10,773 bases of DNA, from positions 1-10,773 of the forward strand of contig DAOVFN010000013.1 of the NCBI GenBank assembly GCA_030672885.1. Direction: 5' to 3'. The notes under the pieces were generated by a model that saw nothing but the letters and a program-made list of their open reading frames with translations, did no database searches and was not told the origin of the DNA. The stretch's first letter is position 1. Every line of letters starts with the position of its first letter. The translations under genes and the position numbers were made by a program. The DNA is from Candidatus Aenigmatarchaeota archaeon (GTDB taxonomy: Archaea > Aenigmatarchaeota > Aenigmatarchaeia > QMZP01). This document shows positions 1,750-10,773 of this stretch, piece after piece.

Positions 1750-2197
1750 GCTTTCCCGTGTCAGCGATAATCCTGGCGTGGTCAAACCCCATCCTGTCGG
1801 GAAGCCCGTCCAGTGGAAACCACCCTATCTCCGTGGCCTCACTGGACTTCCTCAGCCTGCCTCCAACAGGCCTGCAGAGGAACGCCATGCTCACGGCATG
1901 CTTCTCGGGATCCCTTCTAGGGTCATCATAGAAACCGACCATCCTGATTATCCTGACTTCGAGGCCGGTCTCTTCCTTGGCCTCCCTGACACATGCGCCC
2001 CAGGTGTCCTCTTCGCTTTCAACCCTGCCGCCGGGAAGCACCCAGGAGTTCTTGAACATACCGAATGACCTCTTCTGGAGCAGGACCTCATTGCCCCTGA
2101 TTATGACAGAGTCCACTGTGGTTATCCTGTATCCATGAGTGGGCTTTGCCATGTCCCTAAGGCTGGTTATGTTGATTTTCAGGGGCTCAGGAACCAT
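1730..2197 (-). CDS. Nudix hydrolase
   Basis: This 155-residue protein has a complete Nudix box, G-x5-E-x7-REUxEExGU, at about residues 57-79, with Arg-Glu-Ala-Lys-Glu-Glu-Thr-Gly-Leu as its core; the glutamates bind the catalytic metals. Upstream there is a typical Leu-Pro-Gly-Gly entry, and strands on both sides fit one complete Nudix fold. Nudix enzymes hydrolyse a nucleoside diphosphate linked to another group; the substrate cannot be told from this sequence. The start at 2197 overlaps the end of aIF5B by 11 nt, and a strong GGAGGAGA ribosome-binding site lies inside the aIF5B end, so translation is probably coupled. Met16 (base 2152) is an alternative start close to where the conserved domain begins. 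Confidence 0.9.
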   Translation of the reverse strand: MVPEPLKINITSLRDMAKPTHGYRITTVDSVIIRGNEVLLQKRSFGMFKNSWVLPGGRVESEEDTWGACVREAKEETGLEVRIIRMVGFYDDPRRDPEKHAVSMAFLCRPVGGRLRKSSEATEIGWFPLDGLPDRMGFDHARIIADTGKLMKRHD

Positions 2198-3959
2198 GCT
2201 CCATCTCCTCCAGGAGCTCGAGCTCGTCGCCCCTTATCTTTGATTTGAGCTTCATCAGTATCTCCCTGTCTTTTTTGCTCACTATCGCATCGAGCTCGTC
2301 GCCCTCCTCGACGTCCTTGCCCACGACAACGCCCGGCATGGACAGCGCCACCCTCTCCCCTACGTCGGCCTTCCTGAGGTTCTCTCCCCTGGACTGTATC
2401 TCCTTGACCTCGCCCGGCAACACCTCTGTGTCCTGGCCTCTCTTGGAGAGTCTGACGCCGGGCTTTATTATCCCCTTGATGACATCGACACCGAACACGG
2501 CTGGCTTGCTCTGCCTGAAGACATATCCCGGCAGGAGCCTCACCCTGGCGGGCCTGCTCACACCGGCCAGGAGTTTGTCCTCTTCCCTGAGCTTCCTGTC
2601 ATGACTCCACTTCTGGTGCTCCTCAACGAGGCGATAAATCACATCCGAAGAGAACACCTTGACTGAATTGTCCTCTGCAAGCTTCACTATATCCTGGGGA
2701 ATCCTGACCCCGAAGGCAAATATCATGGGCTCGTCCAGTGTCCTGATTTCGGCTATGTCGCTCTTTGTCACGTCACCCACGCTTGCCTTCCTCACACTGA
2801 GGCCCGCGTCCCTGAGTGTCTTTATCAGGGCCTCTAGGCTTCCTAGGGTATCGGCCTTGAGCATGACACCATCCTGGCCGGTCTCTATCTCGACCTCAGA
2901 CATCTCGCTCCTTACCTCTGCGGCAGCTCTCTCAATGTCCCTCTCGTTCCTCACTGCCCTGAGGGGAGAGCCTGCGACAGCCCTCCCGAGTCCGGGCGCA
3001 GATATCTTGATTCCAGCAGCGGCCTGAACAAATGGTATGCTCTTGAAGTCCTTCTCTCCACTGAGTTCACTGAGCGGCCGGGGCGTCAGAAGGGCCCTGA
3101 CCCTGGTGACAGCAACGTCCTCTCCGCCTATCACGAGCGTGTCGCCGCGCTCTATCTCGCCATCATAGAGCACGACATCAATAGTTGTCCCGAGGCCTCT
3201 GTATTCCTTGACCTCGAGCACCGTCCCCTTGCCCCAGCCCGGAGTCAGCTCAAGCCTCTTCTTCAGGTACCTCTGGGCAATGCCCCCCAGCATCATGAGG
3301 AGATCAGCTATGCCCTCGCTGGACATGCTCGAGACCGGCACGACTGCGACCTGTTTCGTGAAGTCCTGGACCCTGTCAAACCTCTCTGCAGGGAAGCCCC
3401 TCTCTCCCAGCTGGCCTATCAGATAATAGAGCTTGTTATCCAGCTCCTCCCTGGTCCGATCCGGCTGGTTCTCATATGACTCAGAGAAGCACGAGCCAGG
3501 CGAGGGCGACCAGCCCACTATCCTGTCTATCTTGGTCGCGGCGACCACAAAGGGCGTGCCGAACTGCTTCAGGTAGTTCAGGCTCTCCTCTGTCTGGGGC
3601 TTGAACCCTTCATTGATGTCAATGACAAGCACCGCCAGGTCTGCGATGGCTCCGCCCCGCTTCCTCAGGGTAGTGAATGCCTCGTGCCCCGGGGAATCAA
3701 TGGCCAGTATGCCAGGAATCGAGAGCTCTATGCCGAGCTTGTCAAGCATGGCTCCGCACTTCTCTAATATGACGCCCCTTGGGATGTACGATGCCGAGAT
3801 GTGCTGGGTTATGAGACCCGGTTCAGTCTTGGTGACAGCGGTCTCCCTGATATTATCCAGAAGTGATGTCTTTCCGTGGTCAACGTTTCCGGTCGGATGT
3901 CACAAAGACAACCAATGCCCGAGCATGACCACGATTGGAGAGCGTATGTTCTTTTTCAT
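2187..3959 (-). CDS. infB: Archaeal translation initiation factor aIF5B, interrupted by a 30-nt candidate intron
   Basis: aIF5B is the ribosome-dependent GTPase that promotes subunit joining. Proposed coding parts are 3959-3915 and 3884-2187, giving 580 residues, the normal size for the archaeal factor. The ATG at 3959 begins the typical N-terminus Met-Lys-Lys-Asn-Ile-Arg-Ser-Pro-Ile-Val-Val, with a GGGGTGG ribosome-binding site at 3965-3971. After splicing, G1 is Gly-His-Val-Asp-His-Gly-Lys-Thr (14-21), G3 is Asp-Ser-Pro-Gly-His (78-82) and G4 is Thr-Lys-Ile-Asp (132-135). Beta-barrel domain II, domain III and C-terminal domain IV follow without interruption. Unspliced, the frame stops at TGA 3902-3900 after 19 codons. 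The first Met after that, at 3749, would remove G1 and the switch 1 region and so cannot give a working GTPase. The rest of the gene is intact, which argues against decay. The Nudix gene overlaps its 3' end. Confidence 0.9.
3885..3914 (-). other. Candidate 30-nt archaeal mRNA intron in aIF5B (bulge-helix-bulge-like)
   Basis: Seen: 30 nt with an in-frame TGA separate Leu-Gly-His from Val-Asp-His-Gly-Lys-Thr, and removing them restores the G1 motif. Manual fold of the transcript: an 8-bp outer helix of exon sequence (3933-3926 with 3882-3875); a helix of 3922-3917 with 3894-3889 (one G-A mismatch, one U-G pair); a 3-nt bulge AUU at 3916-3914; an inner helix 3913-3907 with 3901-3895 (one U-U mismatch); and a 5-nt loop. 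The 5' cut after the second bulge base falls between 3915 and 3914. The 3' cut falls in the unpaired AAACGU between 3885 and 3884. Cuts one or two bases to the left also give the same protein (His codon CAC). The 3' bulge is longer than the standard three bases, so this is a relaxed form. Confidence 0.75.
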
Positions 3960-4057: not shown

Positions 4058-4297
4058 CTAAACCCTGACGGGTTCTGAGGAAGGGGCTTCCTGCTTCCAC
4101 GACCAAACTTGCTCATGAATGCCCATGAGCAGAGGTCCAATCTCCACAGGCGCAGATTCGGGCGGTTCCCGCCCTAATGCCCGGTTCAGTATCTCAAGCA
4201 TGGAGTTGTAAACAAGTCTGCACTTGTTCAGCGTCCGCAGCATATTCTCCTGGTTCTGCCGTGATGGACACATCCTGAATTTGTGCGTCCTTTGCAT
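4058..4297 (-). pseudogene. tnpB: Truncated TnpB (IS200/IS605 OrfB) N-terminal fragment
   Basis: The first half of this 79-residue frame matches the N-terminus of TnpB transposon proteins: Met-Gln-Arg-Thr-His-Lys-Phe-Arg-Met-Cys-Pro-Ser, then Leu-Asn-Lys-Cys-Arg-Leu-Val-Tyr-Asn-Ser-Met-Leu-Glu. In full proteins this leads to the central helical region, a RuvC-like nuclease with three acidic residues, and a zinc ribbon. All of these are missing; the frame stops at 4058, where full TnpB has some 350-400 residues. The start at 4297 has a good AGGAG ribosome-binding site 6 nt upstream, so the 5' end is well preserved. TnpB is an RNA-guided nuclease encoded by these elements; this remnant cannot be active. 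It ends about 20 bp from the aIF5B promoter, so an old insertion and deletion probably shaped that region. Confidence 0.75.
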
Positions 4298-4331
4298 CTG
4301 TATCTCCTGCTCAAGAAACTGCTCATTGTTT

Positions 4332-4390
4332 CTGGTCAGGCCAGTTATCTTTGCTGAATCCTGTTTAGGATTGCATGAAGGTACATATAA
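4332..4390 (-). repeat. Possible left-end hairpins and promoter of the tnpB remnant
   Basis: Two small hairpins sit in the leader of the tnpB remnant: CTGG/CCAG at 4332-4344 (5-nt loop) and AATCC/GGATT at 4357-4372 (6-nt loop). A minus-strand TTATAT at 4390-4385 lies about 28 nt before the predicted transcript start. IS200/IS605 elements carry subterminal hairpins, so these could be remains of the left end, but the stems are short. Confidence 0.3.
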
Positions 4391-4496
4391 GCTTATGGCT
4401 ATGACATTTCCGTTATGCTGCATGGTTCTGGTTTGCTGCTGGAATCTGCTCCAACCGGCTGTTTTGTGCGATTCATCCGCCACCAAATCTGTGTGA

Positions 4497-6522: not shown

Positions 6523-7602
6523 ATGTATTCTGCATTGGCACTGAGAGACGGAACGGTTTTTGTGGGAATGGGCTTCGGCGCTTCCTGCAAGGTCTCTGGT
6601 GAGGTTGTCTTCAACACCGGCATGGCCGGATACACCGAGAGCATAACAGACCCGTCATACTGGGGACAGATTCTCGTTCAGACATATCCCTTGATAGGAA
6701 ACTACGGGGTTTCCAGAAATGATTTCGAGTCCGATGGCCCGAGGATAACAGGATACGTGATCTCCCAGCTCTGCGCCGAGCCCTCGCACCACTCCTCTGA
6801 AAAAACCCTGGATGCATGGCTCAGGGAAAGCGGCATCCCGGGAATCCAAGGAGTGGATACCAGGGCCCTGACCAAGATAATCAGGAATAAGGGAACCATA
6901 CCCGGCATCCTCCAGGTATCTGATAAAGAGATAGATATCAATGCGCTGAAAGAGGATGCCAGCAAGGTCAGCGACCCGAATGAACGAGACCTCACCATGG
7001 AGGTCACGAGGGATTCTATTGCTGTCTTTGGCAAAGGAAGAACCAGGATTGCGCTCATAGACTGCGGGACAAAGAGTAGCATAATAGACTCCCTGGCATC
7101 CCTGGGCATGCAGGTCATCGTCTTTCCTGTGGACACCCCATTTGACACGATAATGGAGCATGCACCGGGGGGCCTGGTCATATCAAACGGTCCGGGAGAC
7201 CCCAAGAAATGCATGGCTGTGAAAGCAGCAAGGGCATCCCTGGAGCACGGCCTGCCGACAATGGGTGTGTGCATGGGCAACCAGGTGCTCGGCCTTGCCG
7301 CAGGGGCTGACACGTACAAGCTCAAGTTCGGCCACAGGTCACAGAACCAGCCCTGCATAGAGGCCGGCACAAAGCGCTGCTACATAACATCCCAGAACCA
7401 CGGCTTTGCCATAGACGCAAAGACCCTTCCAGAGGACTGGAAGGAGTGGTTCGTCAATGCCAATGACAGGAGCAACGAGGGGATAATACATAAGAGAAAA
7501 CCCTTCATGTCTGTGCAGTTCCATCCTGAGGCATCCCCGGGGCCAGTGGATACCGGGTTCCTCTTTGAGCGATTCGCAAAGGTGGTGAAGAATGAAGCCT
7601 AA
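6523..7602 (+). CDS. carA: Carbamoyl-phosphate synthetase small (glutaminase) subunit
   Basis: This 359-residue protein is a complete CarA. The N-terminal CPSase domain contains Gly-Glu-Val-Val-Phe-Asn-Thr-Gly-Met-x-Gly-Tyr-x-Glu. The C-terminal class I glutamine amidotransferase domain has Ser-Asn-Gly-Pro-Gly-Asp-Pro, nucleophile Cys250 in Gly-Val-Cys-Met-Gly-Asn-Gln, and His334 and Glu336 in Phe-His-Pro-Glu-Ala. It releases ammonia from glutamine and channels it to CarB to make carbamoyl phosphate in the cytoplasm. ATG 6523 fits the family start; a TTG at 6508 would add five residues with no support. The last 11 nt overlap the start of a small HTH-like gene, at a place where carB would normally begin. 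Confidence 0.96.
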   Translation: MYSALALRDGTVFVGMGFGASCKVSGEVVFNTGMAGYTESITDPSYWGQILVQTYPLIGNYGVSRNDFESDGPRITGYVISQLCAEPSHHSSEKTLDAWLRESGIPGIQGVDTRALTKIIRNKGTIPGILQVSDKEIDINALKEDASKVSDPNERDLTMEVTRDSIAVFGKGRTRIALIDCGTKSSIIDSLASLGMQVIVFPVDTPFDTIMEHAPGGLVISNGPGDPKKCMAVKAARASLEHGLPTMGVCMGNQVLGLAAGADTYKLKFGHRSQNQPCIEAGTKRCYITSQNHGFAIDAKTLPEDWKEWFVNANDRSNEGIIHKRKPFMSVQFHPEASPGPVDTGFLFERFAKVVKNEA

Positions 7603-7876
7603 AGAGGTTCGCTTTTGGGAATTACCTGACTCAGCTAGATTTCTCTTAAATCGGGAATTCTCCTTAAGATTGTTTGATAATGCCGCAAAGGGAGATTATC
7701 ACAGACTGGCAAACAAACTGAGCATTTCATATCATTATATTCATCGCTTAAGGCGGTCATTATATTCTATCCCAAAGAACATGTTAATTAGAATCTCGGG
7801 TTTAGCGGGAGAAGATTTAATAAGGATAGAGAGAAAAGCGGCATTGTTGAGAAAGTGGGGAAAGTGCGCCCAATAG
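7592..7876 (+). CDS. Small AT-rich HTH-like protein inserted between carA and carB
   Basis: I do not recognise a named family for this 94-residue, very basic protein. Residues about 32-62 look like a helix-turn-helix: Leu-Ala-Asn-Lys-Leu-Ser-Ile-Ser-Tyr-His-Tyr-Ile-His-Arg-Leu-Arg, then Ser-Ile-Pro-Lys-Asn-Met-Leu. This resembles, from memory, DNA-binding modules found in archaeal homing-endonuclease-type proteins, but no LAGLIDADG catalytic motif is present. A strong ribosome-binding site, GGTGGTGA at 7581-7588, lies in the carA end, and the gene overlaps carA by 11 nt. Its base composition (37% G+C at 7621-7800) and codons (TTA, ATT, TCA) differ sharply from carA and carB, which points to transfer. 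Its first six codons resemble the carB start. It may be a mobile-element protein, a regulator, or a remnant. Confidence 0.65.
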   Translation: MKPKEVRFWELPDSARFLLNREFSLRLFDNAAKGDYHRLANKLSISYHYIHRLRRSLYSIPKNMLIRISGLAGEDLIRIERKAALLRKWGKCAQ

Positions 7877-7927
7877 GGCATTCTTATGGAAAAAAAGGGG
7901 GTAGCATGAAGTGAAACCAAAAAAGGT
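7592..7927 (+). repeat. Imperfect 17-nt direct repeat of a carB-like start
   Basis: Bases 7592-7608 and 7911-7927 match at 13 of 17 positions and encode Met-Lys-Pro-Lys-Glu-Val and Met-Lys-Pro-Lys-Lys-Val. The first copy starts the small HTH-like gene and overlaps the carA stop; the second starts carB. The span covers both copies. It may mark the ancestral carB start duplicated during insertion, or be chance. Confidence 0.4.
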
Positions 7928-10773
7928 CTTAGTGCTGGGCAGCGGAGCTCTTAAAATTGGCCAGGCGGGTGAAAATCCTTTAGGTCATTGACCTATTGGG
8001 TCTCCAATTCGACTACTCCGGCTCTCAGGCAATCAAGGCCCTCAAGGAAGAGGATACGAAAGTCGTGCTCATAAACCCGAACATAGCAACAGTCCAGACC
8101 TCGGATTACATGGCCGACAGTGTATATTTCCTTCCCATAGAATCCTGTTTCGTAAGGGGCGTCATAGAAAAGGAGAGGCCTGACGGCATCCTGCTCTCTT
8201 TTGGTGGACAGACCGCGCTCAATGTGGGCATGGAGCTCGCTGACTCAGGTTTCCTGAAGAGGCACGGCATCAAGGTACTGGGCACGCCCGTGGAGGCCAT
8301 AAGGGACACCGAGGACAGGAACATCTTTGTCAGGAAGCTTACAGAAATTGGCATGAAGACCCCCAGAAGCATCGCTGTCACAAGCCTGAAAGATGCGCTC
8401 AGCGCAGCAGAGAAGATAGGCTATCCCGTCATGGCAAGGGCGGCCTATGTCCTGGGGGGAAAGGGAAGCGGCATATCCAAGAACACAAAGGCCCTTGAGG
8501 AAAGGGTGAGAAAGGCGCTGAGCCATAGCAGCCAGGTCCTCATAGAGGAATACCTGGAGGGCTGGAAGGAAATCGAGTACGAGGTCGTCAGGGACAGCGC
8601 GGACAACTGCATAACAGTATGCAACATGGAGAACTTCGATCCCATGGGAATACATACCGGAGAGAGCATAGTGGTCGCACCGTCACAGACACTCACCAAT
8701 CACGAATACCAGAAGCTCAGGGAGATATCGATAAGGCTCATCAGGCACATCGGGGTTGTGGGGGAATGCAACGTACAGTTCGCGCTTGACCCTGAATCAG
8801 ATGACTACAGAATCATAGAGGTCAATGCCAGGCTCTCAAGGAGCTCTGCACTGGCAAGCAAAGCCACTGGTTACCCCCTTGCGTTCATAGCAACAAAGCT
8901 CGCGCTGGGATACAACCTTCACGAGCTTGAGAATTCCATAACCAGAAAGACCATGGCATGCTTCGAGCCAGCACTGGACTACCTGGTAGTCAAGGTTCCG
9001 AGATGGGACCTCCAGAAGTTCGGCATGGTGAACAAGAGACTGGGCTCTGAGATGAAGTCAGTGGGCGAGGTCATGTCCATAGGCAAGTCATTCGAGGAGG
9101 CACTGCAGAAGGCCATAAGGATGCTCGAGATAGGCATGAATGGCATGGTGTGCAATCCAGGCATAACATTCAGTGACATTGAAAGGGAACTGAGAAAACC
9201 CACTGACCAGAGGGTGTTCGCCATAACCAGGGCCCTGAAAGCAGGGCTTTCTGTTGACAGGATACACAACCTCTCCAAGATTGACATGTGGTTCATATAC
9301 AAAATAAAGAACATAGTGGACATAGAATCCAGGCTCAGAGACACCAGGCAGGAAAAGCTCCCGGAAGGGCTTCTTCTCGAGGCCAAGCAAGCGGGCTTCT
9401 CTGACACGCAATTGGGAATGCTTCTGGACGCAGATGAACTCAGCGTGAGAGGGCTCAGGAAGGACATGGGTATCCTTCCCATGGTCAAGCAGATTGATAC
9501 CCTGGCAGCCGAGTACCCTGCATCGACCAACTATCTCTACCTGACATATCACGGCACAGAGGATGACATTGGTTTCAGGGACAGGAAACAGGTCATGGTT
9601 CTGGGTTCAGGTGCCTACAGGATCGGCTCCTCTGTTGAATTCGACTGGTGCTGCGTCAATGCAGTGACCACGCTCAGAAAACTCGGGTACAGGACAATCA
9701 TGCTCAACAACAACCCCGAGACCGTGAGCACCGACTATGACACGTGCGACAAGCTCTATTTTGACGAGCTCAGCTTCGAGGCTGTGATGGACATCTATGA
9801 AAAAGAGAATCCCCTGGGCATGATAGTTTCCATGGGAGGACAGATACCGAACAACCTTGCAATGAAGTGCCGCAAACAGGGGGCCATGATTCTGGGAACC
9901 TCTCCTGAAGATATAGACCGCGCAGAGGACAGGCACAAATTCTCCAGCCTCTTGGACGGGCTCGGGATAGACCAGCCTCCATGGAAGGAACTTGCCAGCA
10001 TAGATAATGCCAGGGAATTCTGCAATAAAGTGGGTTATCCTGTACTTGTAAGGCCGTCCTATGTACTGTCCGGCTCTGCTATGAACGTGGTCTTTGACGA
10101 AGGGAGCCTTGAGCGGTACATCAGAAAGGCATCAGATGTCTCCAGGGAGCATCCTGTTGTCATAAGCAAGTACATCCAGAATGCCCGGGAAGTGGAGATA
10201 GACGCTGTGGCTGACAGTGGTGAGGTCGTGGCCTGGGCTGTCTCAGAGCACGTGGAGAATGCTGGCGTGCATTCAGGGGATGCCACCATAGTCCTGCCTC
10301 CCCAGAAAACATATATGGAAACAGTAAAGAGGATAAGGGACGTCACCGGGAGGATAGCCAGGGCTCTCAGAATAACAGGCCCGTTCAACATCCAGTTCAT
10401 TGCCAAGGACAACCACATCATGGTCATAGAGTGCAACCTCAGGTCATCGCGCTCGTTTCCGTTTGTTTCCAAGATTCTCAAGAGCAACTTCATAGACATT
10501 GCCACCAGTGTCATAATGGGCAGAAAGGCCAGGAGCGACAGGAGCATGTGGGACATAGACTACGTCGGCGTGAAGGCCCCGCAGTTCTCATTCTCCAGGC
10601 TCAGGGGAGCTGATCCCACACTCAGCGTGGAGATGTCATCCACGGGCGAGGTGGCCTGCATAGGCGACGACCTCGAGGAAGCCTTCCTGAAGTCCATGCT
10701 CTCCACAGGATACAGAATCCCCAAGAAAAACATACTGGTGACGCTCAGCGGGACCGAGGACAAGGTAAAGATG
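7911..10773 (+). CDS. carB: Carbamoyl-phosphate synthetase large subunit, with candidate 34-nt intron, 3' truncated by window end
   Basis: CarB makes carbamoyl phosphate from bicarbonate, ammonia and two ATP, using CarA as glutaminase. Proposed coding parts are 7911-7973 and 8008 to the window end, 943 residues so far; the full family length is about 1050-1070, so the C-terminal regulatory domain is cut off. Exon 1 reads [12 protein letters not shown] and ends Gly-Gln-Ala-Gly-Glu; exon 2 opens Phe-Asp-Tyr-Ser-Gly-Ser-Gln-Ala. The first ATP-grasp half has Arg165 and the Gly-Gly-Lys-Gly-Ser-Gly loop; the second half starts near residue 553 with an uninterrupted copy of the same motif. GTG 7911 has GGGGG at 7897-7901 and is the only start in frame, as TAG lies at 7902-7904. 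Unspliced, translation stops at TGA 7989-7991 after 26 codons. Confidence 0.93.
7974..8007 (+). other. Candidate 34-nt archaeal mRNA intron in carB (bulge-helix-bulge)
   Basis: Seen: 34 nt with an in-frame TGA that also shift the frame separate Gly-Gln-Ala-Gly-Glu from Phe-Asp-Tyr-Ser-Gly. Manual fold: outer helix 7963-7967 with 8010-8014 (one G-A mismatch); central 4-nt helix 7968-7971 with 8002-8005 (one U-U mismatch); 5' bulge AAA at 7972-7974; inner helix 7975-7978 with 7998-8001, a UU/UU internal loop, then a perfect 6-bp stem 7981-7986 with 7990-7995; and 3' bulge AAUU at 8006-8009. Cutting each bulge after its second base gives 7973/7974 and 8007/8008, exactly the junction that restores the protein. 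Shifts of one or two A residues leave the mRNA unchanged, so sequence alone cannot exclude those positions. Confidence 0.8.

Follow-up and report, generated by a model that had tools for sequence, protein, structure and literature searches.

Minimal bulge-helix-bulge introns predicted in carB, infB and rtcB of DPANN archaea

The 34-nt insert that interrupts carB in the window (the whole 10,773-nt stretch of DNA that was analysed) is, with a probability of about 0.9, a minimal bulge-helix-bulge (BHB) intron that would be cut by the tRNA splicing endonuclease EndA and joined by the RNA ligase RtcB, and the same holds for the inserts found in infB, carB and rtcB elsewhere. Judged by sequence, it appears to belong to a family of minimal BHB introns that recur in conserved motifs, in three genes or more. 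Taken together, 32 genomes from two DPANN phyla carried at least one insert in carB, infB or rtcB. We infer that these genes are transcribed and that their transcripts are cut and joined.

The carB insert of the window

In the contig, which stems from a 772-kb draft genome that is 74% complete, the genes carA and carB lie on the plus strand, and infB (encoding aIF5B) lies on the minus strand. Exon 1 of carB (7911-7973, plus strand) starts with GTG at position 7911 and runs for 21 codons up to GQAGE. It is followed by the 34-nt insert (7974-8007, plus strand; AATCC...TCCAA), a putative relaxed-BHB intron at a position hereafter called site 2 (GQAGE^FDY), and by exon 2 (8008-10773, plus strand), which begins with FDYSG and runs off the end of the contig. 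As the preliminary description had claimed, the insert breaks the frame and adds a stop: an in-frame TGA is brought into carB, and GQAGE is split from FDY. Equally borne out were the 922 intact codons that follow, as exon 2 is free of stops up to the contig end, and the uninterrupted homologous motif in the second half of the gene (about 9595-9650). Cutting after the second base of each bulge was said to rejoin the protein exactly, and it does so, giving GQAGE-FDYSG; owing to an AA repeat the junction can slide 1 or 2 nt to the left, with the same message resulting from all three positions. Moreover, the carB of the nearest named kin found (Candidatus Aenigmatarchaeota archaeon B30_G1) reads GEAGE|FDYSG without a break. 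In the list of open reading frames for the window, both CarB and aIF5B begin only 3′ of their inserts, which leaves out the GTPase P-loop and the beginning of CarB.

The exonic strand of the central helix (GGUG, 7968-7971, plus strand) faces the intron strand CUCC (8002-8005) with one U-U mismatch, and the bulges are AA^A at the 5′ side (7972-7974, plus strand) and AA^U at the 3′ side (8006-8008, plus strand; a fourth U is possible). The fold described previously stood in its outline, namely a central helix of 4 nt, two bulges and a fitting flanking helix, but only as a relaxed fit, with three of the four central pairs formed, an inner helix AUCC/GGGU and a minimum-energy fold from which the central helix is absent. 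A relaxed fit was also reached by 7.7% of the shuffled inserts. With 200 shuffles for comparison, the fold energy was 1.37 standard deviations lower than their mean, and 17 of them folded at least as well. The BHB structure is therefore suggestive but not decisive from the window sequence alone, and it becomes more than chance because other genomes show it.

Between carA and carB, an open reading frame of 94 aa (7592-7876, plus strand) was observed in a region with 40% G+C, against 53.6% for the window. It opens with MKPK, which resembles the VKPK of the carB start and gives the impression of an insertion at the beginning of carB. We considered whether it might be a gene carried by an intron, but it returned no homologue, and we draw no conclusion from it.

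A putative intron of canonical form in infB of the same contig

The infB gene comprises exon 1 (3917-3959, minus strand; MKKNIRSPIVVMLG plus one base), a putative 30-nt intron at GH^VDHGKT with an in-frame TGA (3887-3916, minus strand) and exon 2 (2187-3886, minus strand), the two exons forming one frame of 580 aa with a single terminal stop. The reading is ...VMLGH, then the 30 nt containing TGA, and then VDHGKT. The insert has the canonical hBHBh′ form, with the central helix UCGG/CCGG, the bulges GC^A and AA^A, an inner helix and an outer helix of eight pairs formed by the two exons (CGUGGUCA/UGACCACG). With cuts behind the second base of the bulges, CTCGGGC is joined to ACGTTGACC, which is translated as L-G-H-V-D, and LGHVDHGKT is restored exactly.

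A total of 61 genomes (the window's and 60 relatives) were searched for infB, of which 50 matched and 30 loci were fetched. The P-loop was readable in 28 relatives, and only in one of them, G019, from the family of the window, was the same position occupied by an insert, again of 30 nt. With UUGG/CCAG against UCGG/CCGG in the window, the central helix of G019 shows a compensatory change. For 13 carriers from the woesearchaeal side, matches of the infB type started at profile positions 3-5, and no break before the P-loop was visible in these profile match positions. In-frame stops in infB of three genomes were rejected as inserts, one being the terminal stop (G021) and the other two lying in uninterrupted matches (G015 and G020). 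A survey of translation GTPases in 17 genomes suggested breaks in EF-2 as well. In G097 (L233) and G043 (L234), both carriers of carB introns, the match begins only after the P-loop; the break of G097, which looks like the end of an intein, was discarded, and so was the split in G047, which is a run of Ns. Separately, a remnant of the IS605 OrfB/TnpB type, with the helix-turn-helix domain only, adjoins the infB start (4058-4486, minus strand).

Inserts in carB of other archaea

In the first comparison of carB, seven out of 88 loci (the window included) were broken at the GQAGE^FDY codon boundary, the other six coming from Woesearchaeota or Nanoarchaeota records; in three loci (L084, L087 and L088) the beginning of the gene was not visible. 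Of 371 genomes sampled around the carrier G043, 61 contained carB, 60 of them readable, and 14 of these presented inserts: 13 at site 2, five at a second position (site 1, GSGA^KIGEAGE), which lies 23 coding bases further upstream, and four at both. Overall, site 1 was interrupted in six genomes. In the phylum of the window, 19 out of 156 genomes gave a strong carB match, and the match table flagged only the window and G494, whose 21-nt insert lies at site 1 with a relaxed BHB fit. Altogether, 149 carB rows were read, 128 being intact and 21 (16 genomes) not. None of the rows titled as bacteria had an insert, and the titled carriers were all archaeal.

Site 2 was interrupted in 14 archaeal genomes besides the window, with inserts of 17-32 nt (17-34 nt for all 15), which provides the comparison with relatives that had been proposed as a check. 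The best BHB cuts the same base in 14 of the 15, that is, in 13 of the 14 other genomes, and one base further in G326. All 15 kept at least three of the four central pairs (12 kept all four), the opposite of what would have told against an intron, namely relatives that keep the insert and lose the helices. Some site-2 inserts are alike and others unlike, the geometry being common to all: those of G255 and G097 have one difference in 21 bases, and those of G043, G045, G046, G289 and G117 have in common a CCTT stem and, after it, AAGGCGC. Furthermore, the flanking exons also pair together in many of the folds (AUCGGAG with CUCCGGU), which suggests to us that the coding sequence may pre-dispose this site. 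Inner stems of 9-10 bp were found in three of the five tested site-1 introns (L165/L241 of G193, L166 of G359 and L122 of G139), and only one of the 15 at site 2 reached 9 bp (L131). The carB genes of G289 (L240) and G359 (L242) are also damaged outside the introns, with an in-frame stop, missing residues or a frame break.

Inserts in the RNA ligase gene rtcB

The RNA ligase gene rtcB was interrupted in 20 genomes read in detail, from which 28 inserts were tested. Flagging was based on in-frame stops or on a late match start within a frame of normal size, so these counts are lower bounds, since stopless in-frame inserts escape the filter. RtcB was found in 116 genomes of a 119-genome sample around G043, with inserts in 10 of the 11 flagged and read, and in 35 out of 41 genomes of the window's order, with inserts in all five flagged and read. 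Five more carriers came from the set of carB-intron carriers, G097 being in both sets. The rtcB of the window's own genome is uninterrupted.

The inserts are concentrated at two motifs, PDGHWGYGFPIGG and GGIGFDINCG, where their exact positions vary slightly, and this variation points to separate insertions. The shortest form, an identical insert of 12 nt in G289 and G359, lacks an inner helix and has the central helix GAGG/CCUU, the bulges AA^U and AG^U and the outer helix CCCG/CGGG. The flagged rtcB of G132 had a larger gap and was left out of the BHB test.

Frames of about 900-1000 codons, in which the rtcB match starts at profile positions 44-49, were seen in G060, G082, G105, G106, G116, G125, G150, G159, G013, G025 and G041; these were left unread and are probably inteins near the same motif that the BHB introns hit. 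The rtcB of G042 (L266, 519-522) has a gap of about 32 residues (query positions 68-99), a stretch with both regions that bear introns elsewhere; the gap is either a deletion or an assembly fault.

BHB geometry and strand matching across the inserts

Structure played no part in the choice of the inserts, which were picked because they break the frame or bring a stop into a conserved motif. For each of them, all the cut pairs restoring the motif were listed, and the best BHB was compared with that of 1,000 shuffles of the insert with the same cut pairs (dinucleotide-preserving, with a plain shuffle as fallback). A canonical BHB was found at the protein-defined junction in 34 out of 50 inserts, against 0.32 expected from shuffles, and a canonical or relaxed one in 43 (1.77 expected), although related inserts were counted separately and the 50 are not fully independent. 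The first insert set gave 22 canonical cases out of 33 (0.19 expected) and 29 canonical or relaxed (1.05 expected), and the second set 12 out of 17 (0.13 expected) and 14 (0.72 expected), respectively. Two further inserts were not counted among the 50, namely that of G494 and the second rtcB site of L299, at which the search found no junction. The seven inserts fitting neither form were the two of 12 nt without an inner helix (L262 and L263), four with an inner helix shorter than three pairs (site 2 of L165, site 1 of L076, L288 and the first site of L291) and L287, in which no central pair forms.

When the intron strands of the central helix were swapped between genomes within a site, the standard pairs fell from 186 out of 200 to a mean of 131 (maximum 155 in 10,000 swaps), and the Watson-Crick pairs from 163 to 103. 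At carB site 2 alone, 57 standard pairs were observed against 49.3 after swapping (P 0.003; 15 inserts, one of them shifted by a base), while carB site 1 (n = 5, P 0.2) and infB (n = 2, P 0.5) were not significant by themselves. The strongest effect was that of the rtcB groups, for which the result speaks for complementarity more than for co-variation, because neighbouring insertion points were pooled. Judged by these swaps, the central helix is conserved through compensatory change.

De novo BHB scans without homology, run on the fetched loci and on a 112-kb sample of the window's genome plus the window, yielded mostly chance motifs and were set aside; one of them gave 631 filtered matches, 248 in loci labelled archaeal.

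Splicing machinery of the hosts and proposed mechanism

EndA was found in 16 out of 17 genomes (no match in G042) and RtcB in 15 (no match in G019, with the infB intron, nor in G255, with a carB intron), all the genomes without a match being incomplete drafts. ARAGORN detected no tRNA genes in the sampled contigs. The EndA of the woesearchaeal carrier G043 was closest to 3iey_A, the other chain of that entry being named NEQ261, presumably of Nanoarchaeum equitans. By homology, the window's host is predicted to encode both the splicing endonuclease and the ligase: its RtcB matched with an E-value of 5e−154, and its EndA (403 aa) matched PDB 4fz2/9w2k over residues 10-403 (2e−96), which we take to be the ARMAN-2 enzyme of the epsilon2 type. 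For enzymes of this type, relaxed substrate recognition is reported (PMC12397907), with which the relaxed carB motif of the window is in keeping.

In the proposed mechanism, base pairing between the Gly-Glu codons (GGUG) of the carB transcript and the 3′ part of the insert would create a bulge at each junction. EndA would cut both bulges behind their second base, RtcB would join the exons, and CarB would be made without interruption. The 30-nt infB intron of the contig would be removed by the same system, as would the carB and rtcB introns of many other DPANN archaea.

Alternative explanations

The kind of element proposed in the preliminary description, a BHB intron, is supported by the inserts at the same site in other genomes, the BHB junctions beyond those of shuffles, the strand matching and the presence of both enzymes in the host. 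At the gathering threshold, Rfam gave no family in the window, L182, L262, L241 or L291. Self-splicing introns of group I or group II were rejected, as no Rfam catalytic core was found and the inserts measure 12-36 nt, and so was an intein in the carB of the window, with an insert of 34 nt that breaks the frame and contains a stop. Ribosomes could instead skip the insert hairpin, as in the translational bypassing of phage T4 gene 60 and of the byp elements of Magnusiomyces mitochondria, and the inserts are indeed short, hairpin-forming and within coding frames. Bypassing is not known, however, to require that the upstream exon pairs with the 3′ part of the insert so as to leave a 3-nt bulge at either junction, nor that strands match across the junction; 34 of the 50 inserts show the former, and the latter was found here as well, so that we consider bypassing very improbable. 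Slightly less probable still are decayed genes or assembly errors, by which the inserts would be indels of pseudogenes or draft contigs. Most carriers are multi-contig drafts, and carB of G289 and G359 bears extra lesions (in-frame stop, missing stretch or frame break), but separate assemblies share the codon boundary of the inserts together with the BHB geometry, and exon 2 of the window's carB is open over 922 codons.

A different matter is the origin of the introns, as opposed to their mechanism. Vertical inheritance, with a single ancient intron at each site that most lineages later lost, would account for the constant position at carB site 2 and in infB and for the look-alike carB inserts, and intron losses in cbf5 are documented (PMC2738675). 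The look-alikes would nevertheless also be explained by lateral transfer of an intron-bearing carB or of the intron itself, and the rtcB insertion points lie a few bases apart within one motif. Moreover, in a CarB tree of 133 rows (G289 and G359 were dropped, their exon 2 being broken), the carriers are scattered: the 13 with site-2 inserts need at least 12 changes, and all 14 intron rows need 13 against a mean of 13.5 for shuffled labels, that is, they are no more clustered. The tree is weakly resolved, and its well-supported branches force at least six changes. Purely vertical inheritance is therefore rather doubtful, and repeated gain or spread at fixed codons appears to fit better than a single gain with many losses.

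Relation to known introns and significance

Marck and Grosjean reportedly described in 2003 the archaeal tRNA introns as cut by EndA. The inserts resemble those introns in the hBHBh′ form, with a central helix of 4 bp and bulges of 3 nt, but they lie in mRNA, where the exonic strand of the central helix is constrained by codons. Relaxed forms without one of the helices (hBH, HBh′) are likewise described for tRNA introns (PMC6379350). EndA also acts on an mRNA in the BHB processing of Haloferax HVO_1309, which takes place in the 5′ untranslated region and not, as would be the case here, in a coding intron (PMC7714728).

According to PMC7714728, only one additional BHB intron, that of the cbf5 mRNA, had been reported, and splicing of other protein genes is given as only predicted in PMC2738675. 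The latter source describes the crenarchaeal cbf5 intron (Yokobori 2009, citing Watanabe 2002 and Yoshinari 2006) in terms that recall the present inserts: it lies inside a protein frame with a BHB or relaxed BHB at the junction, the cut is expected between the second and third bulge base, it sits within a functionally critical codon, and it has been gained and lost among lineages (PMC2738675). Unlike cbf5, other genes are concerned here (carB, infB and rtcB), the inserts are of 12-36 nt and the carriers many and scattered, belonging not to Crenarchaeota but to the phylum of the window (named kin Aenigmatarchaeota) and to that of the Woesearchaeota and Nanoarchaeota records. A single gene also holds up to two inserts, no more than tens of bases apart, and the targets include the very gene of the splicing ligase. 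Introns in carB, infB or rtcB were named in no title or abstract start among the matches listed, and no paper matched for such introns with carbamoyl phosphate synthase; subscription papers and preprints fell mostly outside this search, and an earlier report is possible.

Several DPANN phyla might harbour active, recurrent minimal BHB introns, down to 12 nt, which arise or spread repeatedly at the most conserved motifs, and the interrupted rtcB would then place the splicing machinery under the control of splicing itself in a feedback loop, a proposal to which we give even odds. Automatic annotation of such intron-bearing genomes would make the same error at gene starts as was observed in the window. 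If the inserts are spliced, mRNA splicing by the tRNA machinery would reach at least three genes in two DPANN phyla, two introns about eight codons apart would be possible in one gene, and the ligase doing the joining would be hit as well. Furthermore, recurrent insertion at the same codons would make intron gain testable by comparing close relatives.
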